Notes under the pieces: model-generated
Told to the model about the DNA's origin: nothing
Databases searched by the model: none
What the model saw: only the letters and a program-made list of their open reading frames with translations
Made by a program: the position numbers and the translations under genes
Shown here: piece by piece, positions 15,214-39,250 of the stretch
Layout of the letters: each line of letters opens with the position of its first letter
Position numbering within the stretch: the first letter of the stretch is position 1
Assembly (NCBI GenBank): GCA_021850555.1
Contig: JAJZLX010000026.1
Span: 1 to 48,814 of the forward strand
Direction of reading: 5' to 3'
Length of the DNA: 48,814 nucleotides
Source of the DNA: Pseudomonadota bacterium
GTDB taxonomy: Bacteria > Pseudomonadota > Gammaproteobacteria > Steroidobacterales > Steroidobacteraceae

Positions 15214-16116
15214 TCAGAGGGCAATCTGCCTCAGGCCTTCCGAATCGCGGGCACCGCGGAACATGCCCCGGGTGGTGAAGTCCATCGCAATCCGGCCGGC
15301 GCCATCGACGGCAATCAGCCCGCCGCTGCCGCCGAGCTCCCCCAGTCGGGCAAGCGTCTCGCGCATCGCCTCCTGAAGGGACAGGCCGCGGTATTCGATC
15401 GCCGCGCACATATGATGGGCGGCCACGATACGCATGAAGTACTCGCCGTGACCGGTGGCGGAGACCGCGCAGACGCCGTTTCGCGCATAGGTGCCCGCAC
15501 CGATGATGGGCGAATCTCCCACCCGTCCGGTGCGCTTGTTGGCGACACCGCCGGTGGAGGTGGCGGCGGCCAGATTGCCGGCCGCATCCAGCGCGACCGC
15601 GCCCACCGTCCCCTGGGGCGAGGGCGCGAGCTGCGAGGCAGCCCGGCCGCTGTACAGGGCATCGAGCTCCGCCCGGCGCTCAGGAGTGCGAAAATAGCTA
15701 TTGGGAACGAGGGTGAGCCCCTCTTCCAGCGCGAATTCCTCGGCGCCGGCGCCGACCAGCAGCACGTGGTGGGATTTCTCCATGACGCGGCGGGCAAGCT
15801 CGATGGGGCTTCTCACGTGCCGGACCGCCGCCACCGCGCCGGCGCGCTGTTGACGGCCTTCCATGATGGCCGCATCGAGTTCCGCCGCGCCCTCGCGGGT
15901 GAGGGCCGCGCCGCGGGCCGCGTTGAACAGGGGGTCATCCTCCAGGACACCGACTGCGGCCGTCACGGCATCGAGGCTGGTGCCGCCGCGCTCGAGCACT
16001 TCGTAGCCGCAGTCGAGGGCAGAGGCGAGACCGTCGCGGTAGTGGGCTTCCCGTGCGCCCGAGATCATCCGCCGCGGCACATCGCTGGCGCCGCCGTGAA
16101 TCGCAATGGCATACAT
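15214..16116 (-). CDS. Isoaspartyl peptidase / plant-type L-asparaginase
   Basis: An Ntn hydrolase of 300 residues that autocleaves to expose a threonine and then hydrolyses isoaspartyl dipeptides or asparagine. The nucleophile is T170 in PQGTVGAVALD. Other signatures are HGGA at 7-10, ELDAAIMEG at 79-87, GDSPIIGAGTYA, and STGG shortly after the nucleophile. The usual NAGRGAVF block reads NAARGAAL (65-72), a mild departure. It is divergent from pyc with 75 bp between starts. Confidence 0.88.
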   Translation of the reverse strand: MYAIAIHGGASDVPRRMISGAREAHYRDGLASALDCGYEVLERGGTSLDAVTAAVGVLEDDPLFNAARGAALTREGAAELDAAIMEGRQQRAGAVAAVRHVRSPIELARRVMEKSHHVLLVGAGAEEFALEEGLTLVPNSYFRTPERRAELDALYSGRAASQLAPSPQGTVGAVALDAAGNLAAATSTGGVANKRTGRVGDSPIIGAGTYARNGVCAVSATGHGEYFMRIVAAHHMCAAIEYRGLSLQEAMRETLARLGELGGSGGLIAVDGAGRIAMDFTTRGMFRGARDSEGLRQIAL

Positions 16117-24549: not shown

Positions 24550-25290
24550 TCAGAGGCTCCAGCCGCCATCGATCACGTGGATCTGGCCGGTGGTATAGGT
24601 TGCCCCGGCCAGGTACACCACCAGGTCGGCGATCTCCTGCGGGCGGCCGATCCGGCCGATCGGCTGTCGGGCGATGAAAGCGGCGCGCGTCTGCTCGTAG
24701 TCGCCCTGGGAGCGCAGCCGCTCCTCGAGCGAGGGCGTCTCCACGGTTCCGGGGCAGATGGCATTGCAGCGGACGCCGCGGCCGATGAAATCTGCGGCTA
24801 CGGACTTGGTCAGTCCGATCACGGCGGCCTTGGTGGTTCCGTACACGCACCGCACGGGGACGCCCTTGACGCTGCTCGCCACCGAGGACATGTTGATGAT
24901 GCAGCCCTCGCCGCGCTCGAGCATGCCCGGGAGCACGGCGCGAATCGTGCGAAACATCGCCTTGACGTTCAGGTCATAGGCGAAATCGAGCTCCTCGTCG
25001 GTGCTGTCGAGGAGCGTGCCGTGGTGCACGCAGCCGGCACAGTTAAAAAGAATGTCGACCGCGCCGGCACGCGCGACTGCCGCGGCGACGCTCTTTGCGT
25101 CGAGCACGTCCATCCGGCAGACCTCGATGCCGTGCCCGGCAAGCGGCGCGAGCTTTTCCTCATCGATGTCGGTGGCGAGGACTCTGGCGCCGGCGGCCGC
25201 CAGGGCCAAGCCGCTCGAGCGCCCGATGCCCTGGGCGGCGGCAGTGACGAGCGCGGTCTTGCCTTTCAAGCTGATAGCGGTATTGGACAT
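24550..25290 (-). CDS. SDR, probable 2-keto-3-deoxy-L-fuconate (or -rhamnonate) dehydrogenase
   Basis: A 246-residue NAD(P)-dependent short-chain dehydrogenase. The cofactor loop TAAAQGIG is at 16-23, D41 after the second strand favours NAD, NCAG is at 83-86, and the catalytic set is S135/S136, Y150 and K154. The sequence around INMSSVASSVKGVP, CNAICPGTVETPSLEERL and HVIDGGWSL strongly resembles the Xanthomonas/Burkholderia L-KDF dehydrogenases, which oxidise 2-keto-3-deoxy-L-fuconate to the 2,4-diketo acid. The partner hydrolase and lactonase are in the other minus-strand operon at the right edge. It sits 22 bp after the Gfo/Idh/MocA gene. Confidence 0.8.
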   Translation of the reverse strand: MSNTAISLKGKTALVTAAAQGIGRSSGLALAAAGARVLATDIDEEKLAPLAGHGIEVCRMDVLDAKSVAAAVARAGAVDILFNCAGCVHHGTLLDSTDEELDFAYDLNVKAMFRTIRAVLPGMLERGEGCIINMSSVASSVKGVPVRCVYGTTKAAVIGLTKSVAADFIGRGVRCNAICPGTVETPSLEERLRSQGDYEQTRAAFIARQPIGRIGRPQEIADLVVYLAGATYTTGQIHVIDGGWSL

Positions 25291-25312: not shown

Positions 25313-26383
25313 TTACGAATGTGGAATCGGCGTCGCCGGCGCCTCGTTGGACCGGTAGCACGCCTCGACCAGCGCCATGGTGCGCCAGGCGTCCTCGACC
25401 GAAGTGCGCAGCATCTCATCCTCGCCGCTCGCAAAGCGCTGGACGTTGGACATCGTGCCGATGAACGCGTCCGGAAACCATGCGCCTTCGAGCGGCACCG
25501 CCTGCCAGGGGCCGCCCCGCGGGGCGATCCACAGCTCATCGGGCTCGCCCCTGGGATAGTCGAGCAGCAGACCGAGCTTCACCAGTGCCGCGCCGCGCTC
25601 CCCCTCGATGCGAAGGGTGGCATCCTGGAACCGCCGTCCGAAGTCATGATGATGGTTGATCGAAAGCGTCACGCGACGCTCCGGGCCGTAATCGAGAATG
25701 GCGGAGGTGCGCGTTTGCGCGAGCGCGCTGCCCGGATAGTGATAAGTGCGGGCAAGGACACCGTGCGGCTCGCCGGCGAGCGCCCGGATGACATCCAGGT
25801 AATGAATGGAGTGCGAGACGATCTCGACACGCGGGTTGGGAATGAGGTGAGGGAAAAGCTCCCAGGGCGTGACGAGACTCAAGTGCGCTTCGATATCGAT
25901 GAGCCGGCCAAGGAGCCCCTGCTCCTGTGCGGCCGCGACGGCTTCCATCATGGGGGCGAAACGCAGCTGGAAATTGACGGCCGCGGCGAAGCGCCGCTCG
26001 CGGCAGACGGCGCGGATGTCGGTGGCCTGTGCGAGATCGAGCCCAAGGGGCTTCTGGATCAGCACCGCGGCTCCGGGCGGCAACGCCGTGAGAATGGCGC
26101 GATGCGCCACCGGCGGGGCTGCGATGTCGAAAACGCAGCCCTCGACGCCGGCCGCCTCTTCGAGCGACCGATACACCCGCTCGATGCCCCAGCGTTGTGC
26201 CGTGGCACGCGCCTTGTCGGTGTCGACGTCGAAGATCCCCGCCACTGCGAATCCGGCCTTGCGGTACGCCGGCAGGTGCGCATCGTTCACGATGCCGCCG
26301 CTGCCGATGATGACGATGGGCCGCGCGGCGCCCGGCGGAGGATGCCGCTGGCGCAGGCCCGACGCGCTCCACCCCGTACTCAT
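25313..26383 (-). CDS. Gfo/Idh/MocA-family sugar dehydrogenase
   Basis: A 356-residue two-domain oxidoreductase. The Rossmann loop GSGGIVNDAHLPAYRKAGF (about 27-45) is followed by the family EKP-equivalent, here IQKPLGLDL, where the lysine is kept. A C-terminal substrate domain contains SHSIHYLDVIRAL. D-apiose dehydrogenase belongs to this superfamily, and apiose-type genes lie nearby, so that is a candidate role; other aldoses are equally allowed. The ATG overlaps the stop of the leaderless binding-protein gene (ATGA). The first 20 residues before the Rossmann fold are unusually long and polar. Confidence 0.85.
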   Translation of the reverse strand: MSTGWSASGLRQRHPPPGAARPIVIIGSGGIVNDAHLPAYRKAGFAVAGIFDVDTDKARATAQRWGIERVYRSLEEAAGVEGCVFDIAAPPVAHRAILTALPPGAAVLIQKPLGLDLAQATDIRAVCRERRFAAAVNFQLRFAPMMEAVAAAQEQGLLGRLIDIEAHLSLVTPWELFPHLIPNPRVEIVSHSIHYLDVIRALAGEPHGVLARTYHYPGSALAQTRTSAILDYGPERRVTLSINHHHDFGRRFQDATLRIEGERGAALVKLGLLLDYPRGEPDELWIAPRGGPWQAVPLEGAWFPDAFIGTMSNVQRFASGEDEMLRTSVEDAWRTMALVEACYRSNEAPATPIPHS

Positions 26384-27570
26384 GGGATGATCGCCTCGAG
26401 GCGGGCTTGCGCCTCATCCAACAGCAGTCGGCTTGACTGCTCGGTGTCGAGCGCGCGGGCGAGCAGCGCGTCGATCACCCGTGAGACCTCTGCGAGCCGC
26501 GGATGCAGAGGCATCTCCCGGGCGTGCTCGTGCAGCACATCGAGCTTGTGATAGAAGGGGATCATCCGGTTGATTTCCTCGTCCCCCCAGGTGGAACGGC
26601 GCACTCCGATGGCGCCCTCGAGGGTGGTCAACTTGTCCATGGGGGCCGTCGCCAGATGGCGCAGGAATGCCCAGGCCAGGTCCTTCTGGCGCGAGCCGGA
26701 CGCAAGGGCGATCACCCAGAAGACATTCAAGGAAACGCTGTGCCCGCCGGGTCCCATCGGCAGCGGCGCAACCTCCACACGGCCCTTGACCCGACTCTCG
26801 GCCGAGGATTCGGCGAGGGCGGCGAATCCGAACCAGTTGGCCATCAGCGCCACCTTTCCGGCGCAGAACAGCAGGCCTGCCTTGACACTGTCGAGGGCTC
26901 GCGCGCCCGGCGCGATTGCCGCCTCGTCGCGCGCCAGGAGGCGCAGAAAGTCGAGCGCGCCCTCGGCCTCGCGGGTACGCAGTTGCGGCCGTGCTCCCGG
27001 GCCGAACGGCTCGCCGCCGCGCGACCAGACTTGGATGCAAAAATCGTAGAAGCCGTTGTGACCGTCGGGGTACAGCGCGAGGGTCGTCCCGAAGAGGCCC
27101 CGCTCGGGGTCATGCAGCCGCCGCGCGGCGGCGTGGAAGTCCTCCCAAGTGGCCGGCACGGGCAGGCCGGCCGCCTGCAGCAGGTCCTTGCGGTAGATGA
27201 GGCACTCGGGACCGTCGTGATACGGCAGCCCCCAGAATCCGCCGGCGAAGTCCGCAAGCCGCACCAGCGAGGGGCTCCAGGCCGCCGGGAAATCGGCGAT
27301 CGGCGCTCGGGCGAGATAGGGGCGCAGATTCTCGATCAGCCCCGCGGACTGCGCTTCGGCGAGCCAGTCGGTCGAGAGGAAGGCGAGGTCGAGCGATCCG
27401 TCGCGGAGGGCGTCCTGACCGAACAGTCGCGCGTGCAGATCGTTCAGCTCCAGCGCATCGACCTCGAGACCGGGCGCCTCGCCGGTGGCTCGCGCAAAAT
27501 CCGTGAATTGCCGGCGGATGGCGCTCTCGAACGGGTCAAACTTGCGGATCGCTATGCGGATTGCTCGCAC
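26380..27570 (-). CDS. Leaderless extracellular-solute-binding-protein (family 1) homologue
   Basis: Length is 396 residues. The whole chain has the fold pattern of carbohydrate ABC binding proteins: DLAFLSTDWLAE, GFWGLPYHDGPECLIYRKDLLQAAGLPVPATWEDF, a Trp/Gly-rich region, then APLPMGPGGHSVSLNVFWVIA. There is no signal peptide: it starts GTG with a charged stretch (RAIRIAIRKFDPFESAIRR), and an in-frame stop lies only 8 codons upstream (27592-27594), so none can be added. The GTG has an AGGAGG site and overlaps the IclR gene by 35 bp. No cognate MalFG-type permeases are present. A cytoplasmic sensor or scavenging role is inferred; the export status and function are open. Confidence 0.8.
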   Translation of the reverse strand: MRAIRIAIRKFDPFESAIRRQFTDFARATGEAPGLEVDALELNDLHARLFGQDALRDGSLDLAFLSTDWLAEAQSAGLIENLRPYLARAPIADFPAAWSPSLVRLADFAGGFWGLPYHDGPECLIYRKDLLQAAGLPVPATWEDFHAAARRLHDPERGLFGTTLALYPDGHNGFYDFCIQVWSRGGEPFGPGARPQLRTREAEGALDFLRLLARDEAAIAPGARALDSVKAGLLFCAGKVALMANWFGFAALAESSAESRVKGRVEVAPLPMGPGGHSVSLNVFWVIALASGSRQKDLAWAFLRHLATAPMDKLTTLEGAIGVRRSTWGDEEINRMIPFYHKLDVLHEHAREMPLHPRLAEVSRVIDALLARALDTEQSSRLLLDEAQARLEAIIP

Positions 27571-28375
27571 CGCGCGCCTCCTCTTCCGGCTTCAGTCCAG
27601 CGTGCACCGCGATCACATCTGCGCAGGCCTTCAGCGCCGGAAGCATGTTTTCGAGGCTGGGGCCGCTCTTTTCCTTGAGCGTTGCGATGGTGAGGGCCGC
27701 CTTGATGGAGGAGCCCGCAGAGCCGACCGGCACGCCGATATCCAATCCTCCGACGAATCGCTCGCCCTCGGAGCGCTCGTAGCCGCGCTCGCGGATCGCC
27801 GCGAGCCGCTTCAGGAATTGTGCGCGTGCGGCCGGCTTCTCGCGCCGCCATTCGAGGTCGTGCGTCAGCAGCTCCTCACAGTCTTCAGGATCCATGTTCG
27901 CGAGCAGCACGCGGCCCGAGGTGGTGTGCATGGGCGGGTGCTGCGAGCCGACTTCGACCGACAGGCGGAAGGGCTTCGGGCTCTCCTCCTGGGCGAGCAC
28001 CAACACCCGCTCGCGGTGCAGCACGGACAGATGGCAAGACTCGCGCAGATCCTCGGCGAGCCCGCGCATCAACGGCTGGGCGGCCTTCAGCAGAGCCTCG
28101 TAGGGCGAGTGGGTTCGCGAGAGCTCGAACAGCTTGAGCGTCAGCGAGTACGCGCCGGTAGTCGGCTCGCGCCTCAGGTAGCCGCGGCTCTCCAGGCAGG
28201 CGAGCATGCGGAAGATTTCCCCGGCCTGGCGGTTGAGGGCGCGGGCAAGCTGCGCCTGGGTGAGCGGCACGGCCTGGTCGGACAGGTATTCCAGGACGTC
28301 GAGACCCTTCTCGAGCGCCGGCACGGAATACTTGGTGCGGCGCTCCTCGAGGCTGAGCAGGCTATCGTGTGTCAT
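27536..28375 (-). CDS. IclR-family transcriptional regulator
   Basis: A 279-residue regulator: winged helix-turn-helix at about 17-80 (VPALEKGLDVLEYLS, LTQAQLARALNRQAGEIFRMLACLESRGYL), then an effector domain with ESCHLSVLHRERVLVL, TTSGRVLLANM and VPVGSAGSSIKAALTIA. A strong AAAGGAGG site precedes the ATG. It lies inside the operon, after the sugar permease and before the leaderless binding protein, and is the natural candidate to control the divergent 33597-33693 promoter region. The effector is unknown; a sugar acid is likely for the neighbourhood. Confidence 0.9.
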   Translation of the reverse strand: MTHDSLLSLEERRTKYSVPALEKGLDVLEYLSDQAVPLTQAQLARALNRQAGEIFRMLACLESRGYLRREPTTGAYSLTLKLFELSRTHSPYEALLKAAQPLMRGLAEDLRESCHLSVLHRERVLVLAQEESPKPFRLSVEVGSQHPPMHTTSGRVLLANMDPEDCEELLTHDLEWRREKPAARAQFLKRLAAIRERGYERSEGERFVGGLDIGVPVGSAGSSIKAALTIATLKEKSGPSLENMLPALKACADVIAVHAGLKPEEEARGASNPHSDPQV

Positions 28376-28391
28376 GCAACCTCCTTTGAGC

Positions 28392-29423
28392 TCAGAGGAC
28401 GGCTGGCCGGGATTGTGCCTGATGCGCATCAGGCGCGCCGGATGGAGGGTCGGCCGACAGTCGCGGCGCGCGCCGGCGGCCGCCGACCGTATAGATGGCG
28501 GCCGCCGCGATCAGCACGGTTCCTTCGATCAGACCCTGGTAGTTCGCGCCGAGGTTCAACACATTGAAACCATTGGTCAGGGTGTACAGCACCAGCGCGC
28601 CGGCCACCGTCTTCAGCACGCTGCCGGCGCCTCCGAACAGCGAGGTGCCGCCGAGAATCGCCGCCGCAATCACCGTCAGCTCCTCGCCCTGCAGCGCAGT
28701 CGGGTTCATGGCGCCGAACCGGGAGGCGTACAGGACGCCGGCGAAGCCGGCCGCGAGACTCGAGAGCACGAACGCGCCGAGCCTGTAGCCGCGCACGTTG
28801 ATGCCCGCGAGCCGTGCCGCCTCCGGGTTGCCGCCGGCGGCATAGATGCGCCGCCCGGCGGTGGTGAAGCGCAGCACCAGCCAGATCAGCAGGGTAAAGC
28901 CGGCCATGTACAGAATCGGCAGGGGCAGGCCGGCCGCGCGCCCGCTCTCGAAGCCCGTCATGGCGTTGAGCGCGGCGGGCGTGCCGACCATCAGCGAGCG
29001 GTCATCGGTCACCACCAGCACCAGGCCCCGGATCGCGGTGAGCGTGCCCAGCGTGACGATGAAGGCGTTGATCCCGACCAGCTCCACCATCACCCCGTTG
29101 AGCAGTCCGGCCGCGCCGGCGGTCGCGAGCGACAACATCAGCGCAGCCCAGAAGCCCACGTGGTCGATCACCAGGATGTTGACGGCGGCGGCCAGTGCCG
29201 CCACCGAGGCCACCGAGAGATCGAAGTTGCCCGTGATCAGCACCACGGTCATCGCCACGCCCATGATGGCGACCGGCGCGGTCTGATAGAGGATGTTGAT
29301 GAGATTGACGGGGCTGAGATAGCTCGGCCGGCCGAGTGCGGCGGTGACCCCCGTGAGCGCGGCCACCAGCAGCAACAGCGCGTAAAAGACGCCTGCCTCG
29401 CGCAGGCTCAGTAAGCGTCGCAT
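28392..29423 (-). CDS. Sugar ABC transporter permease (RbsC/AraH type)
   Basis: A 343-residue hydrophobic protein with 8-10 predicted membrane segments, the BPD_transp_2 family. Signatures are ITGNFDLSVASVAALAA, GINAFIVTLGTLTAIRGL, YAAGGNPEAARLAGI and the ILGGTSLFGGAGSV loop that contacts the ATPase. The C-terminal 30 residues are polar. It is 17 bp after the ATPase gene and completes a CUT2-type importer. Confidence 0.9.
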   Translation of the reverse strand: MRRLLSLREAGVFYALLLLVAALTGVTAALGRPSYLSPVNLINILYQTAPVAIMGVAMTVVLITGNFDLSVASVAALAAAVNILVIDHVGFWAALMLSLATAGAAGLLNGVMVELVGINAFIVTLGTLTAIRGLVLVVTDDRSLMVGTPAALNAMTGFESGRAAGLPLPILYMAGFTLLIWLVLRFTTAGRRIYAAGGNPEAARLAGINVRGYRLGAFVLSSLAAGFAGVLYASRFGAMNPTALQGEELTVIAAAILGGTSLFGGAGSVLKTVAGALVLYTLTNGFNVLNLGANYQGLIEGTVLIAAAAIYTVGGRRRAPRLSADPPSGAPDAHQAQSRPAVL

Positions 29424-29440: not shown

Positions 29441-30949
29441 TCAGTGTATCTGCCCCTGCGGCCCGGCGCCGGCGGCGAGCCGGATCAGCTCCTGCTCGTC
29501 CGTTTCCGCCGCCACGCGTTCCGCCACGATCGCCCCCTCGCGCATGACCAGGATGCGGTCGGCTTCCTCGAGCAGCAGCTTCAGCTCCGAGTCGACCAGG
29601 ATGACGGCCACCCCCGCGCTCGAGAGCTCGCGGACCTGGTCGAGGATTTCCGTCTTGGCGCCGATGTCGATCCCGGCAGTCGGCTCATCGAGCAGCAGCA
29701 GCTTCGTCGGGCCGCACAGCCATCGGGCGATGCTGACCTTCTGAGCGTTGCCTCCGGACAGATCGCCGACCGCGGCGTCGAGATCGCGTGTCTTGATCAG
29801 CAGACGCCTGACGGCCGCGGCCGCGGCCGCGCGCTCGAGCCTGCGCCGCGGAAACACGCCCCAGCGCGAGAACCGCCCCAGATGCGCGAGCGTCATGTTC
29901 TGCCACAGCGGCAGCCCCGGCACCAGCGCCTGGGAGGCCCGATCCTCGGGCACCAGAGCGATGCCGGCGCGCACCGCCGCAACCGCGGAGCGCGCCACAA
30001 CTTGACCGGACACGCGCACCTCGCCGCGAGCGCTTCGGTCGGCTCCAAAGATCGCGTGGAGCAGCTCGCTGCGCCCGGATCCGAGAAAACCGGCGATGCC
30101 GAGCACCTCGCCGCCGCGCACGCGAAACGTGCACGGCGCCAGGCGCCCGGGCGAGCGGAGCCCGACGATTTCGGCGGCGACGTCGGCCCCGGCGCGCACG
30201 GTCTGTCTGGTGGCTCTATGGATGGTGCGGCCGGCAATCGCGGTGGCAATTGCGGCCTCATCGACCGCGGCGCTGTCCATGCTCATCACCGCCGCGCCGT
30301 CGCGCAATACGGTCAAGGCATCCGTCACCGCCAACACTTCGTCGAGAAAATGCGTTACCAGCAGCACCGCGCACCCCTCGGCGGCGAGACGCCGGATCGC
30401 GCGATGCACGATCCGGCGCTCGGGTGCGGCGAGCGAAGCCGTCGGCTCGTCCATCACGATGAGCTGTGCGTCGGCCGCGAGCGCCTGCAGAATGCCGACC
30501 ATCTGCCGCTCCCCGATCGCTAGCGCCGCGACCGGGGTATCAGGCTGCAAGTGGTAGCCGATCGAGTCCATCAGACGCGAGAGCTGCCGGCGCTCCTCGC
30601 GGCCGCTGCGGGCCCATCCGCTGCGCCCGAGGAACACGTTCTCCCGGACTGACAGCGAGCCGACCAGAGGGATTTGCTGGTGCAGCGTGGCGACCCCGGC
30701 TGCGCGTGCCTGCGCCGGGCACGACCACTGTACCGGAGCGCCGCGCCATAGGATCCTGCCCGCAGTCGCGTGCGTGGCGCCGCAAAGGATGCGGATGAGA
30801 GTCGACTTGCCCGCGCCATTGGCGCCAAGCAGGCCGTGGACGGTCCCGGAGCGGACCGTGAGATCGACACCACGCAGCGCGGCGGTGCCGTTGGGATAGA
30901 TCTTGGCCAGGCGCTCGAGCGACAGCAGGGGTTGGACGACGCTCGACAC
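29441..30949 (-). CDS. Sugar ABC transporter ATPase, two fused domains (RbsA/MglA type)
   Basis: A 502-residue CUT2 ATPase. Domain 1 has a normal Walker A (GANGAGKST, about residue 42), a weak signature (LAIGERQM) and Walker B ending MDEPTASL. Domain 2 has the usual altered Walker A (GFLGSGRSE), a full signature LSGGNAQK and Walker B ending LDEPTAGID. One consensus and one degenerate site is normal for this family. The start is GTG, 7 bp after the binding-protein stop. It energises uptake with the neighbouring permease. Confidence 0.92.
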   Translation of the reverse strand: MSSVVQPLLSLERLAKIYPNGTAALRGVDLTVRSGTVHGLLGANGAGKSTLIRILCGATHATAGRILWRGAPVQWSCPAQARAAGVATLHQQIPLVGSLSVRENVFLGRSGWARSGREERRQLSRLMDSIGYHLQPDTPVAALAIGERQMVGILQALAADAQLIVMDEPTASLAAPERRIVHRAIRRLAAEGCAVLLVTHFLDEVLAVTDALTVLRDGAAVMSMDSAAVDEAAIATAIAGRTIHRATRQTVRAGADVAAEIVGLRSPGRLAPCTFRVRGGEVLGIAGFLGSGRSELLHAIFGADRSARGEVRVSGQVVARSAVAAVRAGIALVPEDRASQALVPGLPLWQNMTLAHLGRFSRWGVFPRRRLERAAAAAAVRRLLIKTRDLDAAVGDLSGGNAQKVSIARWLCGPTKLLLLDEPTAGIDIGAKTEILDQVRELSSAGVAVILVDSELKLLLEEADRILVMREGAIVAERVAAETDEQELIRLAAGAGPQGQIH

Positions 30950-30956
30950 GACCGGC

Positions 30957-31919
30957 TCACCACTGCGGGGGGCACTCGCGCGCGTTCGCCCGGGTGATCC
31001 CGGGTGTCCGGTACGTGACGAACGCCGCGTGCAGCGGCTTCTTGCCCGTCACGTCGTCATAGAGCGCCTCGAAGGCGAGCGCACCGAGCTCGAGCGGCTT
31101 GTAGCAGACCGTGCCGTCGATGCGGCCGGCCTCGAGCGAAAGGATCGCAAGACTCGAGCCGCCGATGCCGATCAGTTTCGCGTGCGAGCCGGCGGAGCGC
31201 ACCGCGCGCGCGCAGCCCACCGCCATGTCGTCCGCTTCGTTGAAGAACAGGTCGACATTCGGATGGGCTTCGAGAATGTTCTGACAGGCCATGTCCGCGT
31301 CCTCCATGCGCCAATAGCCGGGTTGGGTCGCGACGATCCGGTACTTCACGTGCGCGCTCCGAAGCCCCTGCTCGAAGCCGTCCTCGCGCTGCAGGACTTC
31401 CGGAAACCCGGGCGCGCCCTGAATGATGGCGATATGCGCGAGGCGCCCCGGCGGCAGAAGCCGGGCTGCGAGCCGGCCGGCCTCGCGGCCGGCGGCGGTC
31501 TCGTCCTGGGTGACCAGAGCCACGAGCTTCGGATACACATCCCGCAGAGGCCGTCTGCGCGGATTGCCGACCTGCGAGCCCACCGCCACGATCGGGATGC
31601 CGGCCCGCGCGGCTTGGCTCACCCAGCTCTCCGCGATCACCGAATCGAGCGGCATGAGCACGATGCCGTTGACCCGTTCGGCGATCAAGTCCTGCAGGTC
31701 GTTGGCCTGCTTCTGCACGCGGTTCTGGGCATCGAGCACGATGGCCTGCACGCCCGCGCGAGCGGCCGCCTGCTTGAAGCCGCGTGCGATCGCCGCAGCG
31801 AACGGATAGCTCAGTCCCGCGCTCGAGAGGCCGAAGCGCAGCGGGGCTGCGGTCACGGCGCGCGCGAGCAGCGTGGCGCACAGGGCCGCCGCAAATGCCG
31901 TGCTGCGCGCGGCTTTCAC
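30957..31919 (-). CDS. Periplasmic sugar-binding protein (RbsB type)
   Basis: About 320 residues: a signal peptide (KAARSTAFAAALCATLLARAVTA) followed by a type I periplasmic binding fold with LRFGLSSAGLSYPFAAAIARGFKQAA and VNGIVLMPLDS. The GTG start places the signal peptide at the N-terminus; an in-frame ATG at 31982 would add 21 residues and overlap the MaoC gene by 44 bp, which I consider less likely. It delivers sugar to the adjacent importer. Apiose-binding proteins of ABC systems exist and would suit this locus, but ligand identity is inferred from context only. Confidence 0.85.
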   Translation of the reverse strand: MKAARSTAFAAALCATLLARAVTAAPLRFGLSSAGLSYPFAAAIARGFKQAAARAGVQAIVLDAQNRVQKQANDLQDLIAERVNGIVLMPLDSVIAESWVSQAARAGIPIVAVGSQVGNPRRRPLRDVYPKLVALVTQDETAAGREAGRLAARLLPPGRLAHIAIIQGAPGFPEVLQREDGFEQGLRSAHVKYRIVATQPGYWRMEDADMACQNILEAHPNVDLFFNEADDMAVGCARAVRSAGSHAKLIGIGGSSLAILSLEAGRIDGTVCYKPLELGALAFEALYDDVTGKKPLHAAFVTYRTPGITRANARECPPQW

Positions 31920-31938: not shown

Positions 31939-32391
31939 TCATGCGAGGGCCTCGCGCCGCTCGACCAGATACAGGTGCTCACAGCCGAGCACGGTCTCGC
32001 CCCGCTGATTGGCGATCTCGACCTGCTCGACGATGATGCCGTGCGTCTTGCGCTTGGGATGGTCGCGTCGCGCGCTGATGCGTGCGGTCACGGTGAGCGT
32101 ATCGCCGATGAACACCGGCCGGATGAAGCGCACCCGGTCGTAGCCGTAGGACATCGAGCGCGGGTTGATGGTGTTGGCGGTCATCCCGATGCCGATGCTC
32201 AACACCAGCGTGCCGTGGGCGATGCGCAGCTTGAACGGCTGTTGCGCGCACCATTGCGCGTCCATGTGATGGGGGAAGAAATCGCCGGTCTGGCCCGCGT
32301 GCATCACGATGTCCGCTTCGGTGAGCGTACGGCCGAAGGTCCGCCGCTCGGCGCCGATCTCATAGTCCTCGAAGTATTGCTCGACGATCAT
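31939..32391 (-). CDS. MaoC-like dehydratase/hydratase
   Basis: A 150-residue hot-dog-fold protein. The hydratase-type Asp/His pair is in [12 protein letters not shown] (D37 and H41 or H42), followed by [12 protein letters not shown] and [19 protein letters not shown]. Such proteins hydrate or dehydrate acyl-CoA thioesters. The ATG overlaps the CaiB stop by 4 bp, so the two enzymes are coupled and likely act on the same CoA ester. The substrate is unknown; being the second gene of a sugar-transport operon is unusual for this family. Confidence 0.88.
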
Positions 32392-33596
32392 GCCGACCCT
32401 CCCGGTGTGTCGAGCCCGAAGCGGCGCAGGATCTCGTCGGTGTCGCGGCCGAGCGCCGGAGCGCCGCGCGAGGCGCCGAGCACCTGCCCGTCGATGCGGA
32501 TGGGGCAGCGGGTCGTGCGCAGGGTGCCGTGCTCACCGTCGTGGATGTCCTGCGTCAACGCGAGGGCGGCAAAGCCTTCGCGCTCGAGCAGCTGGGGCCA
32601 GGTGAGCACCTCGGCGCACCAGACGTCGGCGGGCTCCAGGATTGCCAGCCAGTGCGCGCTCGGCTGCGCGGCAAGGTGCGCGGCGAGAATGGACTTGATC
32701 CGGGCCCGCTCGGTGAACCAGCGGGCCGGGTCGGTGTAGGCCTTGAGCGGCTCGCAGCCGATGAGCGCCCCGAGGCGATCGACCGGGGACATCGCGACCG
32801 CGAGGTAGCCGTCGGCGGTCTGGTAGATGCCGTACGGCGCACCGAGATACACGCTCGCGTTGTTGACCGCATCGCGGGCCGGCTGCCGGCCGTCGCCATT
32901 GAGAAATGCGCTGAACTGCTCGAACTGCATGTCGATCGCGGATTCGAACAGGCTCACATCGACTCGTCCGCCCCTCCCGGTCCGTCCGCGCCGCACCAGC
33001 AGGGCGAGTACCCCCTGGCAAAGGTGTGCGCCGGCCATCAGGTCGGCGATGGACACGCCCATGGGCACCGGTCCCTGGGCGGCGTCACCCGAGAGCCATG
33101 CCAGCCCCGACATGGCCTGCACCAGCAGGTCCTGTCCCGGTTTCTTGCGCCAGGGGCCTTCGGTGCCGTAACCGGTGATGGCCGCGTAGATCAGGCGCGG
33201 GTTCAGGTCCGCGACCGTGGTGTAGTCCAGGCCGAGTCGGTCCATCACGCCCGGTCGGAAATTGTGGACCATCACATCGGCGCGCCGGATCAGCGCCTTG
33301 ACCCGCTCGAGATCGGCGGGATCCTTCAAGTCCGCGGCGAGACTTTCCTTGTTGCGGTTGATGGTATGAAAGAGCGCGCTGTCCTCGCCGAAGGATTGGT
33401 CGGCCAGGTACAGGCGGCGGGACAGATCCCCCCCCTGTGGACGCTCCACCTTGATCACCTCGGCACCGAGATCCGCCAGCCGCAGGCAGCAGGAGGGTCC
33501 GGCTAGAAACTGGCTGAAATCCAGCACCAGCACCCCCTCCAGCGGTCGCTCGGCGGTCGTCCTCGGCGCGCCGTCGTCCACGTGCGCTGTCTTCAA
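32388..33596 (-). CDS. CaiB/BaiF-type (class III) CoA-transferase
   Basis: A 402-residue family III CoA-transferase. The N-terminal CoA-binding region has [31 protein letters not shown]; the catalytic aspartate is D156 in [14 protein letters not shown]. The start is TTG, preceded by GAGGA and sitting about 24 nt after the predicted transcription start, with homology beginning near residue 20. It opens the ten-gene minus-strand operon. Partner acids are unknown; a sugar-derived hydroxy acid dehydrated by the coupled MaoC protein is one hypothesis. Confidence 0.9.
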
Positions 33597-33693: not shown

Positions 33694-34830
33694 ATGCGCA
33701 AAGATCGGGCAATCCTGCTGCGAGGCATGACCTGGGACCATCCGCGCGGCTATGGACCGCTCGTGGCGTGCTCGGCCGTATGGCGCGAGCGCACCGGCGT
33801 GGAGATCGAGTGGGAGCGGCGCTCGCTGCAGGATTTCGAGTCCTTTCCGGTCGCTGAGCTCGCCGCCCGCTACGACCTCATCGTGATCGATCATCCGCAC
33901 GTCGGACAGGTGGCGCGCGAGGAATGCCTCGCACCGATCGATGAGGGCGTCGATGCGGGAGATCCGGCGTGCGCGGCGGTCGGGGCCTCGCTCTCGAGCT
34001 ACCGGTGGGGCGATCGGCTCTGGGCGCTGCCCATCGACGCGGCGGCACAGGTTCTGGCCTGGCGTCCGGATCGCCTGTCCGCCCCCCCCGCGGACTGGTC
34101 GGCCGTGCTCGAGATGGCGGCGGGCGGCGCAGTGCGGTGCCCGCTGCGACCGCCGCACAATCTGATGGCGCTGTTCACGCTGTGCGGATTGGCCGCTCAC
34201 CCGCCCCGCACGCATGGAGGAGAGCTCTTTGAGCCGGCGGCCGGCCGCGAGGCCTATGAGCGCTTGCGCGAGCTCGCCGCGCGCATCGGCCCGCGCTGCG
34301 GCGAGCAGGATCCGATTGCAGTGCTGGAGGAGATGGCCGCGCCGGACTCGAGAGCGGACTGCGCGCCGCTCATCTACGGCTATGTCAGTTATTGCAGATC
34401 TGATGCCCGGGGCGCCCGCGTGGCTTTTGCAGATCTGGCGCCGCTTGCGCGCGGCGGCTCGTGCGCCGGCTCGGCGCTCGGCGGCACCGGCATCGCCGTT
34501 TCGGCGCAAGGTACGGAGCGCGCCGCCGCGCTCGCTTTCGCACGCTGGGTGGCCGGCGCCGAGGCGCAATGCGGACCGTATCTTGCCGGCGGCGGCCAGC
34601 CGGCGCACCGCGCCGCCTGGGACGACGCGCGCGCGAACGAAGTCTCACTCGGCTTCTTTCGCAACACCCGCGCGACGCTGGAGGGCGCCTGGGTGCGCCC
34701 GCGTCATGCGGGTTACATGACATTTCAGGATGCGGCCGCCGAGCGCCTCGCGCAGGCGCTGGCGGCGCACGAACCGGGCGTCTCGGTCATCGCGGCGCTC
34801 AATCGACTGTATCTGGAGGTACTGCCATGA
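33694..34830 (+). CDS. Leaderless solute-binding-protein-like protein
   Basis: A 378-residue protein with binding-protein fold features: MTWDHPRGYGPL, YDLIVIDHPHVGQ, WALPIDAAAQVLAWRPD, GTGIAVSAQGTERAAALAFARWVAGAEAQ. There is no signal peptide: it starts MRKDRAILLRGMTW and an in-frame TGA sits two codons upstream (33688-33690), so the N-terminus is fixed. The ribosome site GAGGGGGTGA is strong. It heads the plus-strand operon with GH127, the RuBisCO-like protein and the kinase, divergent from CaiB. It has no transport partners of its own. Function unknown; a cytoplasmic ligand-binding role is inferred. Confidence 0.8.
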   Translation: MRKDRAILLRGMTWDHPRGYGPLVACSAVWRERTGVEIEWERRSLQDFESFPVAELAARYDLIVIDHPHVGQVAREECLAPIDEGVDAGDPACAAVGASLSSYRWGDRLWALPIDAAAQVLAWRPDRLSAPPADWSAVLEMAAGGAVRCPLRPPHNLMALFTLCGLAAHPPRTHGGELFEPAAGREAYERLRELAARIGPRCGEQDPIAVLEEMAAPDSRADCAPLIYGYVSYCRSDARGARVAFADLAPLARGGSCAGSALGGTGIAVSAQGTERAAALAFARWVAGAEAQCGPYLAGGGQPAHRAAWDDARANEVSLGFFRNTRATLEGAWVRPRHAGYMTFQDAAAERLAQALAAHEPGVSVIAALNRLYLEVLP

Positions 34831-36662
34831 GCCGACCCACCTCACGCCGGACATTCCTGCAATCAGCCGCAACGGCGGCCGGACTCGGGGTCATCGGCGC
34901 ACGCCCGCGCTGGGCCCGCGCTCGCCCGGCGATGGCGCGCAACGGCTCTCCAGGTCCGCTCATCGAGAGATTGCGGGAGTTCGATTATGCGGACGTGGCC
35001 CTCACAGGCGGCCCGCTCAAGAGGCAGTACGACTTCATTCATGCTCACTATCTGGCGCTCGACAACGACCGGCTTCTGCAGGTCTACCGCGAGCACGCCG
35101 GCCTGCCGGCACCCGGCATCGACATGGGTGGCTGGTACGGCAAGGGCGGATTCATTCCCGGCCATGCGCTCGGTCAATACGTCTCCGGCATCGCGCGTTT
35201 CGGCCGCTGCACCGGTGACGAAGCGTGCCGGTCGAAGGTGCACGAGCTGGTGCGCGGCTTCGGCGAGGCCCTGGACGCCAACCCGGTTCCGTACGCCGGC
35301 GAGGGCGCCTGGAAAGTCTGGCCGGCCTACGTGCTCGACAAACACATGATCGGACTGATCGATGCCTACCGTCTGAGCGGCATGCGCCAGGCGCTCCCGT
35401 TGATCCCGCGCGTGATTCGCGGCGCGCTGCCGTTCATCTCGCCGGTCAGCCGCGACCGGATCGGCGTCAAGAACCCGCCCTATGACGAAACCTACATCGT
35501 TTCGGAGAACCTGTTCACCGCGGCGCACCTGACCGGCGAGCGCAGCGTGCGCGATCTGGCGGTGAAGTACCTGTTGAACAAACCTTACTTCGATCCGCTC
35601 TCCCGCGGTGAGAACGTACTGGCCGGCCGTCAGGCCTACAGTCACGTCATGGCGCTCAGCTCGGCGGCCATGGCGTACCTCGAGCTCGGCGAGCCCCGTT
35701 ACCGCGATGCGCTCGTCAACGGCTGGAAATTCCTCGACGAGCAAAGCTACGCGACCGGCGGCTGGGGACCGAACGAGCTGCTGATCGCTTCGGGCACCGG
35801 CGAGCTGTACTCCAGCCTGGCCGGCACCGTGAATCATTTCGAGACGCCGTGCGGCACCTACGCGACCATGAAGGCCGCCCGCTACCTGATGCGCTTCACG
35901 GGCGATGCGCGCTACGGCGATGGGCTCGAGCGCATCATGTGGAATGGGCTGATGGCGGTGAAGCCGCCGGACTCGAACGGCAACTCGCCGTACTATTCGA
36001 GCTATCACCCGGACGGGAAAAAGGTCTTCTATCCTGAAAAGTGGCCGTGCTGCTCGGGCACTCTGGCGCAAGGCGTGGCCGATTATGTCCGCAATGTCTA
36101 TTTCCACGCGCCGGGCGCGCTCTACGTGAACCTGTTTGCCCCGTCGCGGGTGCGCTGGCGCACGGGAGGGAGAGCCGTAACGCTCACGCAGCACACCGAC
36201 TACCCGATGGGCGGGTCGGTGACGCTGCAGGTGGCGACAGCTGCACCGGCGACGTTCGCGCTCATGATCCGCATTCCCGGCTGGCTGCAGGCCGATGCGG
36301 AAATCCGCGTCAACGGCCGGCGAATGACGATCGCGGCCGAGCCGGGCACGTTCGCCGCGCTCAAGCGCACCTGGCGCGACGGCGATCGGGTGCAGTTGCA
36401 CCTGCCGCAGTCGTTGCGCACGCAGTCCATCGACCGCTCGCACCCCGGCACGGTGGCCCTGTTGCGCGGGCCGCTCGTGTACAGCGCGCTGAACTTCGCC
36501 GGCCCCGGCACGCCCGTGCCGCGGCTCGAGGTGTCCGGCCTGAGTCCGGTCACCGGCGCGCCCGACACCTACCGGCAGATGGATCGCGGGCAGCAGATCC
36601 TGTTCGTGCCTTTCTACAAAGTCCAGAGCGAGTCCTACAATGTCTACTTCGAGCGGGCCTGA
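34827..36662 (+). CDS. GH127-type (DUF1680) beta-L-arabinofuranosidase-like hydrolase, Tat-exported
   Basis: A 611-residue protein. A twin-arginine signal (SRRTFLQSAATAAGLG, from residue 6) indicates export in folded form. The all-helical catalytic domain has NHFETPCGTYATMKAARYLMRFTGDARYGDGLERIMWNG; the zinc/cysteine site of the family (Glu and Cys pair, then Cys-Cys) corresponds to E339, C342, C408 and C409 (WPCCSGT). The C-terminal half has beta-sandwich segments (IRIPGWLQADAEIRVNGRR). Known members remove beta-L-arabinofuranose, and relatives occur in pectin RG-II breakdown. The ATG overlaps the upstream stop (ATGA); its own stop overlaps the RLP start by 23 bp. Confidence 0.88.
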   Translation: MSRPTSRRTFLQSAATAAGLGVIGARPRWARARPAMARNGSPGPLIERLREFDYADVALTGGPLKRQYDFIHAHYLALDNDRLLQVYREHAGLPAPGIDMGGWYGKGGFIPGHALGQYVSGIARFGRCTGDEACRSKVHELVRGFGEALDANPVPYAGEGAWKVWPAYVLDKHMIGLIDAYRLSGMRQALPLIPRVIRGALPFISPVSRDRIGVKNPPYDETYIVSENLFTAAHLTGERSVRDLAVKYLLNKPYFDPLSRGENVLAGRQAYSHVMALSSAAMAYLELGEPRYRDALVNGWKFLDEQSYATGGWGPNELLIASGTGELYSSLAGTVNHFETPCGTYATMKAARYLMRFTGDARYGDGLERIMWNGLMAVKPPDSNGNSPYYSSYHPDGKKVFYPEKWPCCSGTLAQGVADYVRNVYFHAPGALYVNLFAPSRVRWRTGGRAVTLTQHTDYPMGGSVTLQVATAAPATFALMIRIPGWLQADAEIRVNGRRMTIAAEPGTFAALKRTWRDGDRVQLHLPQSLRTQSIDRSHPGTVALLRGPLVYSALNFAGPGTPVPRLEVSGLSPVTGAPDTYRQMDRGQQILFVPFYKVQSESYNVYFERA

Positions 36663-37926
36663 CAGTGCGCGCGTTCTGGCGCGCTACTGGATCGAAACCG
36701 CCCGTCCGCTGGAGGAAGCGGCGGCGCAGATGGCCGGCGAGCAGTCGACCGGCACGTTCGTGCGCGTCGCCGGTGAAACGGACGCGCTGCGCGAACACTT
36801 CACCGCGCGCATCGAGGCATTGACGCAGACGGGGGAGAGGAGCTCACCCTCGTTGCCCGGAGCCTGGCAGCCGCGAGGCGGGCCGGGCGTGTGGCGTACC
36901 GCCGAGGTCACCCTGTCCTGGCCGCTGCACAATTTCGGACCGTCGCTGCCGAACCTGCTCGCCACCGTCGCCGGAAACCTCTGGGAGCTGAAGGCGTTCT
37001 CCGGCATGCGGCTGCTCGATCTGACGCTGCCGCGGGAATTTCTCTCGGCCTATCCCGGCCCCCGGTTCGGGGTGCCCGGAACACGCGCGGTGAGCGGCGT
37101 GCACGGCCGGCCGCTCATCGGCACGATCATCAAGCCAAGTGTGGGCCTCTCGCCCGAAGCGACCGCCGCGCGGGTCGCCGAGCTCGCCGCCGCCGGCGTG
37201 GACTTCATCAAAGATGACGAGCTGCAAGCGGACGGTCCGCTCTGCCCGTTCGAGGCGCGCCTCGGCGCGGTGATGCGCGTGCTGCGCGAGCACGCCGAGC
37301 GCACCGGGCGGCGCGTCCTTTACGCAGTCAACATCACCGGCGAGATCGATCAGATGCTGCGCCGCCATGAGCGTGTCGTGGCCGAAGGCGGCAATTGCAT
37401 CATGGTGAGCCTGCACAGTATCGGTTTGCCGGCGCTGACGGCCCTGCGCGCCCAGTGCCAGGTGCCGATCCACGGCCACCGCAACGGCTGGGGCCTGCTC
37501 GGCCGCTCGCCGGCGATCGGGGTCAGCTTTTCGGCCTGGCAGAAGCTGTGGCGCGTGGCGGGCATCGATCACGTGCACGTCAACGGTCTCGACAACAAGT
37601 TCTGCGAGAGCAACGAGTCGGTCATCGCCTCGGCGCAGGAGTGTCTGACGCCGATGTTCTCGCCTCCGGCTCGCGGCTGCCAGATCATGCCGGTGTTCTC
37701 TTCCGGCCAGACGGCGCTGCAGGCGCCGGGCACTTGGCAGGCGCTCGGCTCGGTGGATCTCATTCACGCCTGCGGCGGCGGCATCATCGGCCACCCCGGC
37801 GGCGCGGCCGCCGGAGTGCGCAGCCTGCATCAGGCCTGGGAAGCGGCCGTCGCCGGCATCCCCCTCGCGCACTATGCGCGTGAGCATCGCGAGCTCGCCG
37901 AGGCAATTGCCGCCTTTGGCCGCTGA
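36640..37926 (+). CDS. RuBisCO-like protein, probable 3-oxo-isoapionate-4-phosphate decarboxylase or transcarboxylase/hydrolase
   Basis: A 428-residue member of the RuBisCO large-chain superfamily. Active-site equivalents: K165 in GTIIKPSVGL (RuBisCO K175), the K191-D-D-E box (K201, D203, E204), H278/H280-R281 (H294 region), H313 and K320 (H327, K334), S355-G (S379) and the phosphate-binding GGGIIGHPGG (379-388). RuBisCO K177 is replaced by S167, so it should not fix CO2 as RuBisCO does. RLPs next to a DUF1537 kinase act in D-apiose catabolism, either decarboxylating 3-oxo-isoapionate 4-phosphate or splitting it to 3-phosphoglycerate and glycolate. Which one applies here is not readable from sequence. 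Confidence 0.85.
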   Translation: MSTSSGPDSARVLARYWIETARPLEEAAAQMAGEQSTGTFVRVAGETDALREHFTARIEALTQTGERSSPSLPGAWQPRGGPGVWRTAEVTLSWPLHNFGPSLPNLLATVAGNLWELKAFSGMRLLDLTLPREFLSAYPGPRFGVPGTRAVSGVHGRPLIGTIIKPSVGLSPEATAARVAELAAAGVDFIKDDELQADGPLCPFEARLGAVMRVLREHAERTGRRVLYAVNITGEIDQMLRRHERVVAEGGNCIMVSLHSIGLPALTALRAQCQVPIHGHRNGWGLLGRSPAIGVSFSAWQKLWRVAGIDHVHVNGLDNKFCESNESVIASAQECLTPMFSPPARGCQIMPVFSSGQTALQAPGTWQALGSVDLIHACGGGIIGHPGGAAAGVRSLHQAWEAAVAGIPLAHYAREHRELAEAIAAFGR

Positions 37927-37936
37927 GGAGCGTCTC

Positions 37937-39250
37937 GTGGACCGTCCTCTGTACGCGTATTACGGCGATGACTTCACCGGCTCGACCGACGTCCTCGAGG
38001 TGTTGGCGTCGGCCGGCGTGCGCAGCGTGCTGTTCATCGGGCCGCCGGGCGAGCGGCACGTCCGCCGGTTCCGCGGCTGTCAGGCGCTCGGCATCGCGGG
38101 CGACAGCCGCAGCCGCTCGCCCCGGTGGATGAGCGAGCGCCTGCCGGCGTTGCTCTCACGGCTTGGGGCATTCGGCGCGCCGATCGCGCACTACAAGACC
38201 TGCTCCACGTTCGACAGCTCGCCGCGGATCGGCTCGATCGGGCGTGCGCTTGAGATCGGGCGCGACACGCTGCCCGGCCCCTTCATTCCAATCGTGGTCA
38301 CAGCGCCGCACCTTGGCCGCTACGTGGCCTTCGGCAACCTGTTCGCGGACGCCGGCGGGGTCGTGCACCGGATCGATCGCCATCCCACGATGCGGGCTCA
38401 CCCGGTCACACCCATGCAGGAGGCGGATTTGCGCCGTCACCTGGCTGCGCAAACCGCGATGCGCATCGGGCTGATCGAGCTGCCGGCACTGGCGCGCGGC
38501 GCCGCGGCCGAGGCGCTGGCCGGCTGCCTCGCCGCCGGTGATGAGGCGGTGCTCTTCGACGGGGTCAGCGAGGCGGACCTCGCCCAGATCGGGCGGGTGT
38601 TGTGGCGCAGCGCGCAGTGTCGTGCGCTGTTTTGCGCCGGCAGCTCCGGACTTACGCACGCGTTGCTGTCGGTCTGGCGGGACGCGGGACTGATTCCGGC
38701 GCGAAGCGAGACACAGTCTTGCGGGAAGCCCGTGGACACGCTGCTGGCGATGAGCGGCAGCTGCTCGCCCGTGACCGAGCGTCAGATCCAGGCAGCCCTG
38801 CGCGCGGGTTATCACGGCATCGCGCTGGATCCGGCGCTTCTGCTCAGCGAAGCGTCCGGCGCGCAGGCGGGCGAGCGGCTGGTGCGTGAGGCTGCTGCCC
38901 GCTTGCGGGACGGCCGCAGCACGGTCCTCTACAGCGCGCTCGGGCCGCCGTGCACCGGCTCACCCGCCTCGGGCGAGGAGCTCGGCCGCCGGATGGGCGA
39001 GCTGCTTGCACGCATCCTCGCCGCCGCGCCGGTGCCGCGCGTGCTGCTCGCCGGCGGCGATACCTCGAGCCATGCGGTCGCACAGCTCGGTCTGTACGCC
39101 CTCACCTGGAGTGCAAGTCTCGAGCCGGGCGCGCCGTTGTGCCGGGCGCATGCCGAGGAGCGATCCGCTCTGGAGGGCTTAGAGCTCGTCCTCAAGGGCG
39201 GTCAGGTTGGGAGCGAGGGGTTCTTCGAGCGTGTCAGGCTCGGCCGTTAG
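37937..39250 (+). CDS. oiaK: Four-carbon acid sugar kinase family (DUF1537), probable 3-oxo-isoapionate kinase
   Basis: A 437-residue ATP-dependent sugar-acid kinase. The N-terminal substrate domain begins YAYYGDDFTGSTDVLEVL (GDDFTGSTD at 10-18); then HYKTCSTFDSSPRIGSIG; the C-terminal nucleotide domain has AMSGSCSPVTERQI, LLAGGDTSSHAVAQLG and the terminal GAPLCRAHAEE...LVLKGGQVGSEGFF. The start is GTG, chosen for the GAGGAG site 6 bp upstream and the family start (DRPLYAYYGDD); a longer frame from 37874 overlaps the RLP gene. It begins 10 bp after the RLP stop, the arrangement expected for apionate catabolism. Its last 72 bp are antisense to the end of the MFS gene. Confidence 0.85.
   Translation: MDRPLYAYYGDDFTGSTDVLEVLASAGVRSVLFIGPPGERHVRRFRGCQALGIAGDSRSRSPRWMSERLPALLSRLGAFGAPIAHYKTCSTFDSSPRIGSIGRALEIGRDTLPGPFIPIVVTAPHLGRYVAFGNLFADAGGVVHRIDRHPTMRAHPVTPMQEADLRRHLAAQTAMRIGLIELPALARGAAAEALAGCLAAGDEAVLFDGVSEADLAQIGRVLWRSAQCRALFCAGSSGLTHALLSVWRDAGLIPARSETQSCGKPVDTLLAMSGSCSPVTERQIQAALRAGYHGIALDPALLLSEASGAQAGERLVREAAARLRDGRSTVLYSALGPPCTGSPASGEELGRRMGELLARILAAAPVPRVLLAGGDTSSHAVAQLGLYALTWSASLEPGAPLCRAHAEERSALEGLELVLKGGQVGSEGFFERVRLGR

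Follow-up and report, generated by a model that had tools for sequence, protein, structure and literature searches.

TMBP, the trehalose/maltose-binding protein of Thermococcus litoralis, and MalE3 of Thermotoga maritima are the described sugar-binding proteins with which we compare SBP2, a predicted solute-binding protein encoded at positions 26380..27570 (minus strand) of a 48,814-nt stretch of DNA from a member of the Steroidobacteraceae (contig JAJZLX010000026.1; this whole stretch is called the window in the following). We take TMBP and MalE3 to be exported subunits of importers. A second point of comparison is given by class III coenzyme A (CoA) transferases with two subunits, such as SmtAB, for which we know of no binding protein that acts as a partner. 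Cytosolic single-domain proteins with other functions are found under the Pfam profiles of solute-binding proteins and made up about 1% of the retrieved proteins, according to one study (Microbiol Spectr 2022, PMC9602780). The non-phosphorylative pathway of L-fucose and L-rhamnose runs through a dehydrogenase, a lactonase, a dehydratase, a 4-dehydrogenase and a 2,4-diketo hydrolase, and the known L-fuconate dehydratases belong to the enolase superfamily, with the altronate-dehydratase family also occurring in L-fucose pathways (PMC13406643). Our analysis indicates that SBP2 and a second leaderless protein of the window, SBP1, represent families that are kept inside the cell in several phyla, in sugar-breakdown gene clusters that mostly include CoA-transferases as well; their probable role is a metabolic one, and neither import nor partnership with the neighbouring regulator. 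We assign a probability of about 0.5 to the reading that SBP2 acts in the cytosol in a 6-deoxyhexose pathway that involves CoA chemistry, where it would bind a sugar or sugar acid and probably serve the CoA-transferase, and that it is neither a transport protein nor an accessory of the regulator.

SBP2 is leaderless as a family

The two binding proteins and the start region of SBP2 are located in the window as follows:

26380..27570, minus strand: SBP2, leaderless binding protein of the MalE fold (396 aa, GTG start; PF01547/PF13416)
27571..27600, minus strand: start region of SBP2, with AGGAGG 6 bases before the GTG and an in-frame TGA as the eighth codon upstream
33694..34830, plus strand: SBP1, second leaderless binding protein (378 aa; PF13416), 6.1 kb from SBP2

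The original prediction, made from the letters of the window, had described the GTG start, the in-frame stop 8 codons upstream and overlaps with two neighbouring genes, and all of these details were confirmed: the open reading frame of SBP2 shares 35 bp with that of an IclR-type regulator (27536-28429) and 4 bp with that of a Gfo/Idh/MocA oxidoreductase (25313-26383; Gfo in the following). Of 15 window-like loci, 14 show a 4 bp overlap with Gfo and one an overlap of 1 bp; the overlap with the IclR gene is 29-35 bp in the 9 loci that gave a value, and purine-rich stretches of a similar kind are found upstream of SBP2. The protein matches PF01547 with an E-value of 2.3e-25 and PF13416 with 9.2e-16.

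As a measure for an export signal we used the highest 12-residue hydropathy mean within the first 45 residues. All 10 transport controls, which were picked by us and comprise nine annotated transport binding proteins and the importer's own protein from the window, show an export-like hydrophobic start with values of 1.63-2.44. For the best 120 members of each family (the window protein included) the maximum was 1.32 for SBP2 and 1.38 for SBP1, and on this measure an export-like start was observed in none of the 120 in either case; the window SBP2 itself lacks the export signal of family-1 solute-binding proteins (PF01547/PF13416). With lengths of 391-411 aa, the best 120 SBP2 matches span 98-100% of the query. 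We additionally scored 127 proteins derived from the loci (76 SBP2, 51 SBP1), of which two reached the lowest transport control (at least 1.63): the SBP2 of locus L056 scores 1.86 with a hydrophobic stretch that by eye lies inside the domain, and the SBP1 of L045 scores 1.74 from an over-long script start 20 residues ahead of the conserved one. In the window-like loci a stop is mostly found 7-10 codons ahead of the SBP2 start (38 in L013), and many Sphingomonadales loci have a long open frame upstream of SBP2 that contains no strong hydrophobic stretch. SBP2 is leaderless as a family and not a truncated copy; for the window, a truncated transport protein is ruled out by the upstream stop together with the missing signal-like start in the best 120 relatives. 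The predicted leaderless binding protein therefore stood, as the signal-bearing homologues that would have spoken against it were absent from these 120.

An AlphaFold2 model of SBP2 (66 sequences) reached a mean pLDDT of 95.5, with the onset of the first strand at residue 4. The model superimposes over the whole chain on the maltose-bound MalE3 (6dtq) with a TM-score of 0.88 and on TMBP (1eu8) with 0.90, at an identity of 23-24%. SBP2 thus has the two-lobed type II binding-protein fold with a sugar pocket, the pocket being assigned from the alignment. In 69 of 69 aligned SBP2 proteins W69, H118, G120, P121, D169, H171, N172, N245, W246, G248 and F249 as well as the further polar residues R9, D68 and R324 are invariant; W285 is found in 68 of them. 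Two tryptophans of TMBP that we take to be pocket residues are matched in the alignment by W246 and W285. Because the pocket-like residues are invariant and these two tryptophans are matched, SBP2 probably still binds a sugar-like ligand. The model of SBP1 (pLDDT 93.7, first strand onset at residue 8) likewise matches sugar-binding proteins.

Both families are large: 1750 homologues of SBP2 were found at E<=1e-20 among 7995 scored candidates, and 4078 matches of SBP1 at E<=1e-15 with about 8000 candidates scored. The named matches listed in both families are nearly always labelled as transport binding proteins. In a sample of 274 genomes from the class of G004, only G004, the centre genome itself, carries SBP2, and SBP1 was found in 6 of 289 genomes of an alphaproteobacterial class sample, the centre included.

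Gene neighbourhood and proposed 6-deoxyhexose pathway context

Next to SBP2 a set of metabolic genes is conserved across phyla. We examined 41 wide loci, each with 9 kb or more on either side of SBP2, and observed Gfo in 40, a MaoC-type hydratase/dehydratase in 39, a CaiB-type class III CoA-transferase in 36, SBP1 in 35 and an SDR oxidoreductase in 34 of them; these counts are uncorrected for relatedness, 27 of the 41 loci being window-like or from Sphingomonadales and only 3 from Acidobacteriota. Two pairs of loci are duplicates (L084 equals L042, L088 equals L064), and L065 and L066 (24-30% identity) were left out of the counts. Gfo immediately follows SBP2 in 64 of 75 loci. All 19 Bacteroidota loci, two of which are duplicates, have CaiB upstream and Gfo downstream of SBP2, and in an evenly drawn Bacteroidota sample 10 of 296 genomes carry SBP2 (centre genome G002 included), each of the 10 with CaiB directly upstream and Gfo downstream. 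The typical gene order there is SBP1-CaiB-CaiB-SBP2-Gfo-MaoC, and G003, G323, G468, G500 and G520 each yielded exactly two CaiB genes, both in the SBP2 locus; only one CaiB was detected in window-like loci. A natural CaiB-CaiB fusion, P0244, for which two CaiB domains were confirmed, suggests that the two CaiB genes of the module may form a heterodimer. Many of the top matches to a joined CaiB+SBP1+SBP2 query have the length of CaiB-CaiB (the named ones are from Hymenobacter, Pelagicoccus and Planctomycetota). CaiB was also observed fused to a 3-hydroxyisobutyrate-dehydrogenase-like part (P0290) and to an FAD-binding part (P0302). On the haloarchaeal plasmid L068 (10332-13236, plus strand) SBP2 adjoins an AMP-binding gene and is surrounded by MaoC, Gfo, an L-rhamnose mutarotase and an alpha-L-fucosidase.

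We also opened plasmid regions around SBP1, some of them chosen from rows already showing CaiB, and found a CoA-transferase as the next gene in 7 of 9 (L067, L070, L098-L101, L104); in L102 it is located 2.6 kb off and in L103 none is annotated. The neighbours of SBP1 vary among these plasmid loci. In L101 SBP1 lies between the CoA-transferase and an enoyl-CoA hydratase, and in L076 a class I CoA-transferase (PF01144; 5-1486, plus strand) is directly ahead of SBP1 and is in turn closely preceded by a CaiB gene on this contig. Several of the plasmid loci contain a mandelate-racemase-type gene alongside CaiB and MaoC, so the module cannot simply replace that gene there.

For the pathway context we looked at the Flavobacterium locus L045 (genome G003). 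Divergent from the module we found an L-fucose dehydrogenase (355.6 bits, cut-off 300), together with homologues below the cut-off of L-fucono-1,5-lactonase (260 of 400) and 2,4-didehydro-3-deoxy-L-rhamnonate hydrolase (374 of 500), a zinc alcohol dehydrogenase and an MFS transporter that we read as FucP-like; homologues of the oxidative 6-deoxyhexose enzymes are thus present together except for the dehydratase. RhaT, an SDR and a lactonase homologue (NF052480, 110 bits, cut-off 400) are located in the window 18-21 kb from SBP2, and neither an FAA hydrolase nor a sugar-acid dehydratase was found among the window genes scanned, all of them beyond position 16116. PF13378 has no match within 100 kb on the SBP2 contig in any of 11 Bacteroidota genomes. 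In the five genomes with two CaiB genes named above, one of which (G323) carries an SBP2 identical to that of Flavobacterium L064, every match of PF00920 and PF04295 is either on another contig or separated from SBP2 by over 100 kb, and an L-fucose dehydrogenase is located at most about 10 kb from SBP2 in all five. G003, G323, G468 and G520 have a second place with an L-fucose dehydrogenase, and there a PF04295 match lies within 2.4 kb. Since the dehydratase-type matches are this distant and the L-fucose dehydrogenase is near, CaiB, MaoC, Gfo and two binding proteins stand where a dehydratase would be expected in the SBP2 locus of these five genomes, which is an argument from a gap and no proof.

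In the window, the operon of SBP2 and the neighbouring ATP-binding cassette (ABC) importer comprise the following genes:

24550..25290, minus strand: SDR oxidoreductase of the operon (PF13561)
25313..26383, minus strand: Gfo/Idh/MocA oxidoreductase (PF01408), 4 bp overlap with SBP2
27536..28429, minus strand: IclR-type regulator (PF01614, PF09339; gene call start 28375), a lineage-specific neighbour of SBP2
28392..29423, minus strand: ABC permease of the PF02653 type
29441..30949, minus strand: ABC ATPase with two domains (two PF00005 stretches)
30957..31919, minus strand: signal-bearing Peripla_BP_4 binding protein of the importer (PF13407; hydrophobic N-terminal stretch 2.23)
31939..32391, minus strand: MaoC-type hydratase/dehydratase (PF01575, E 6.7e-22)
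32388..33596, minus strand: CaiB-type class III CoA-transferase (PF02515, E 1.9e-102)

The window CaiB has the PF02515 fold of class III CoA-transferases, and the Asp in its motif SIADLMAG aligns with the Asp of formyl-CoA transferase, presumably the catalytic Asp of these enzymes; the aligned Asp is kept in the CaiB of L069, too. The operon permease is of the PF02653 type and not of the MalF/MalG type PF00528 (PF00528 was not searched across the whole window). As the original prediction had argued, SBP2 is not needed by the adjacent importer, which consists of the PF02653 permease, the two-domain ATPase and its own signal-bearing type I protein. The Bacteroidota loci contain RhaT or MFS transporters in place of the ABC importer. 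Moreover, 4 of 11 SBP2-bearing Bacteroidota genomes (G003, G319, G323, G520) have a single PF00528 match in the whole genome, and G003 and G468 have exactly two PF13416 matches, both in the SBP2 locus; counts with PF13416 are lower bounds, as this profile misses members (0 matches in the SBP2-bearing G319).

Directly behind SBP1 the window encodes a glycosidase of the GH127 family (PF07944; 34830-36662, plus strand), the N-terminus of which reads as twin-arginine-like and which is present in 7 of 7 wide window-like loci. We considered aceric acid as a substrate because of this gene and rejected it, as a literature search gave no support for it. The adjoining region (36640-39250, plus strand) encodes a RuBisCO-like protein akin to OiaX (443 bits, cut-off 700) and a kinase akin to OiaK (461 of 700), i.e. 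an isoapionate-like pair beside the module; homologues of this pair are located about 10 kb or less from SBP2 in Flavobacterium L050.

Possible roles of SBP2

Taken together, the leaderless family, the invariant pocket-like residues, the conservation of SBP1, CaiB, MaoC and Gfo across phyla and the existence of genomes with one PF00528 match and without a convincing IclR gene argue for SBP2 as a conserved metabolic component. The breakdown module would be an oxidative one of the L-fucose/L-rhamnose type. SBP2 (and SBP1) would bind a sugar acid or a derivative of it and hold or deliver it to the CoA-transferase, the sugar acid would then be carried as a CoA thioester, MaoC would dehydrate this thioester and Gfo and SDR would process the product; in some lineages such a CoA route would take the place of the classical sugar-acid dehydratase. 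The more specific proposal, that CoA-thioester dehydration of 6-deoxy sugar acids replaces the classical dehydratase and that the two cytosolic MalE-fold proteins are sugar-acid-capturing subunits of the CoA-transferase and have thus moved as binding proteins from import into catalysis, is put forward only tentatively.

The main rival is that SBP2 could itself catalyse a step of the sugar-acid pathway, its MalE fold having become that of an enzyme, which we consider a possible but doubtful alternative. There is precedent for such a change in the futalosine pathway, where the enzymes MqnA and MqnD have the fold of type II binding proteins; profile scans (limit E 0.001) gave no match of SBP2 to enzyme families of the MqnA/MqnD type. 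The polar residues R9, D68, H118, D169, H171, N172, N245 and R324, invariant in 69 of 69 proteins, would suit a catalyst, as would the operon place of SBP2 between enzymes in the CaiB-less Acidobacteriota loci L056 and L058 and the one step without a gene in the Bacteroidota locus. However, the conserved W246 and W285 and the full-length fit to maltose-bound MalE3 are what is expected of a plain binder, and since no single missing pathway step fits all loci examined we do not claim a specific enzyme activity for SBP2. It is unlikely that SBP2 is a soluble sugar buffer or channelling protein with no fixed partner: although its invariant residues are kept with and without CaiB and the neighbours of SBP1 are varied, the invariable placement between CaiB and Gfo in the 19 Bacteroidota loci and the tight gene overlaps suggest a stoichiometric partner.

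According to the original prediction SBP2 may present its ligand to the IclR regulator, and a conserved linkage of the two genes was proposed as a check. For this purpose we counted IclR genes by tblastn with six IclR queries (E<=1e-6) in the 74 loci with at least 1 kb upstream, where directly upstream was defined as on the same strand within 300 bp. The 35 bp overlap in the window and the IclR gene directly upstream in 15 of 15 window-like loci speak for such a role, and IclR genes are also found close to SBP1 in several of the plasmid loci, while 14 of the 41 wide loci have one in the vicinity of SBP2. Overall, however, only 19 of the 74 loci have IclR directly upstream, with 4 of 25 in Sphingomonadales/Alpha, 0 of 19 in Bacteroidota, 0 of 9 in Acidobacteriota and 0 of 6 among the others (in one of these six, L059, it lies two genes upstream), and in 7 of 11 SBP2-bearing Bacteroidota genomes the IclR helix-turn-helix matches are only marginal (22.9-24.5 bits, cut-off 22). 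The C-terminal domain of IclR proteins, moreover, normally binds the effector directly. The proposed linkage is thus largely absent outside the window-like loci, the overlap is specific to the lineage of the window, and a partnership with IclR as the general role of SBP2 is ruled out by the distribution over loci and genomes; the IclR protein is probably a common local regulator and not an obligate partner, and we regard ligand presentation as very improbable. What stood of the intracellular role proposed for the two leaderless proteins is their common setting, both being present in 35 of the 41 wide loci, and what found no support is the presentation to the regulator. An unusual regulator layout was observed in L049 (8244-9509, plus strand), where an IclR-type helix-turn-helix is joined to a Peripla_BP_4 sugar-binding domain. 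Least probable of all is that SBP2 is a transport binding protein with a lost or hidden export signal, a reading that the window itself already contradicts. The MalE fold with its sugar-pocket residues would fit it, as would possible longer hydrophobic starts in three Acidobacteriota loci, but it is opposed by the absence of a signal in the best 120 members, the fold onset at residue 4, the stop 8 codons upstream, the nearby PF02653-type permease with a type I binding protein of its own and the presence of the family in genomes with a single PF00528 match.

Several observations weigh against SBP2 as a component that serves the CoA-transferase, among them those in the Acidobacteriota. In the deep branch L048/L053-L058/L062 no CaiB, MaoC or SBP1 was detected in the locus DNA examined, and 4 of 6 Acidobacteriota genomes searched (G008, G594-G596; several are metagenome-assembled and maybe incomplete) gave no CaiB match, with one match each in G009 and G597. 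This weakens the idea of SBP2 as a universal CaiB subunit. In L056 and L058 SBP2 follows a sugar kinase and a KDPG-type aldolase and precedes an SDR, an FAA hydrolase and an aldehyde dehydrogenase. The family-invariant residues are retained in the CaiB-less branch (positions 11, 13, 117 and 282 differ there), so ligand binding by SBP2 need not depend on CaiB, and in a midpoint-rooted tree, seen in part, this branch and the haloarchaeal protein stand apart from the CaiB-linked clade. In L055-L057 the open frame upstream of SBP2 contains a hydrophobic stretch (1.68-1.99), and a longer, possibly exported start is possible there. The dehydratase argument is weakened as well: the five Bacteroidota genomes were chosen for having just two weak PF13378 matches each, an FAA hydrolase is present in only 3 of 9 wide Bacteroidota loci, the sugar of the second L-fucose dehydrogenase locus may differ and part of the contigs may be short. 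In G004, the genome of the close relative L001, a gene of the enolase superfamily lies about 15 kb from SBP1, which limits the argument to Bacteroidota. For SBP1, the relative in L103 adjoins mannonate dehydratases, and in the alphaproteobacterial sample CaiB is beside 4 of 7 SBP1 places, two of them in the centre genome, which leaves 2 of 5 outside it. Finally, fused chains speak partly for and partly against a link to CaiB: the joined query matched 113 long proteins, of which four (P0286, P0287, P0289, P0292) combine SBP and CaiB domains in one chain. In favour of the link, P0286 and P0292 were confirmed and have clean linkers by eye; against it, P0287 and P0289 have frameshift-like linkers, and all four are listed solely from metagenomic sources (ena, jgi), where gene calling could have produced them.

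If the two families belong to cytosolic pathways, genome surveys count too many transporters, the MalE fold has acquired a function inside the cell and a CoA-dependent branch of sugar-acid metabolism is still to be described in Proteobacteria, Bacteroidota, Acidobacteriota, Chloroflexota and a haloarchaeon. Within the coverage of our literature search, which left out most subscription papers, no title or abstract opening described this gene set.

Comparison with known systems

SBP2 shares with TMBP and MalE3 the same full-length fold and, in the alignment with TMBP, both pocket tryptophans; it differs from them in that it has no signal and has enzymes as neighbours. At the positions of Tyr121 and Asp123 of TMBP (numbering and roles as we assume them for this comparison) SBP2 aligns with His118 and Gly120. 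The repertoire study that reports cytosolic proteins under these profiles describes, in its accessible part, no such protein in a CoA-transferase module (PMC9602780). With the non-phosphorylative L-fucose/L-rhamnose pathway the module has in common that homologues of the dehydrogenase and of the lactonase and hydrolase share the Flavobacterium L045 locus with it. In contrast to this pathway, the five genomes have no enolase-, IlvD- or altronate-dehydratase-type gene near the locus and contain CaiB, MaoC, Gfo and two leaderless proteins instead. The two-subunit class III CoA-transferases of the BbsEF type are similar in their tandem CaiB genes, and the window CaiB resembles a subunit of benzylsuccinate CoA-transferase (9fn0).

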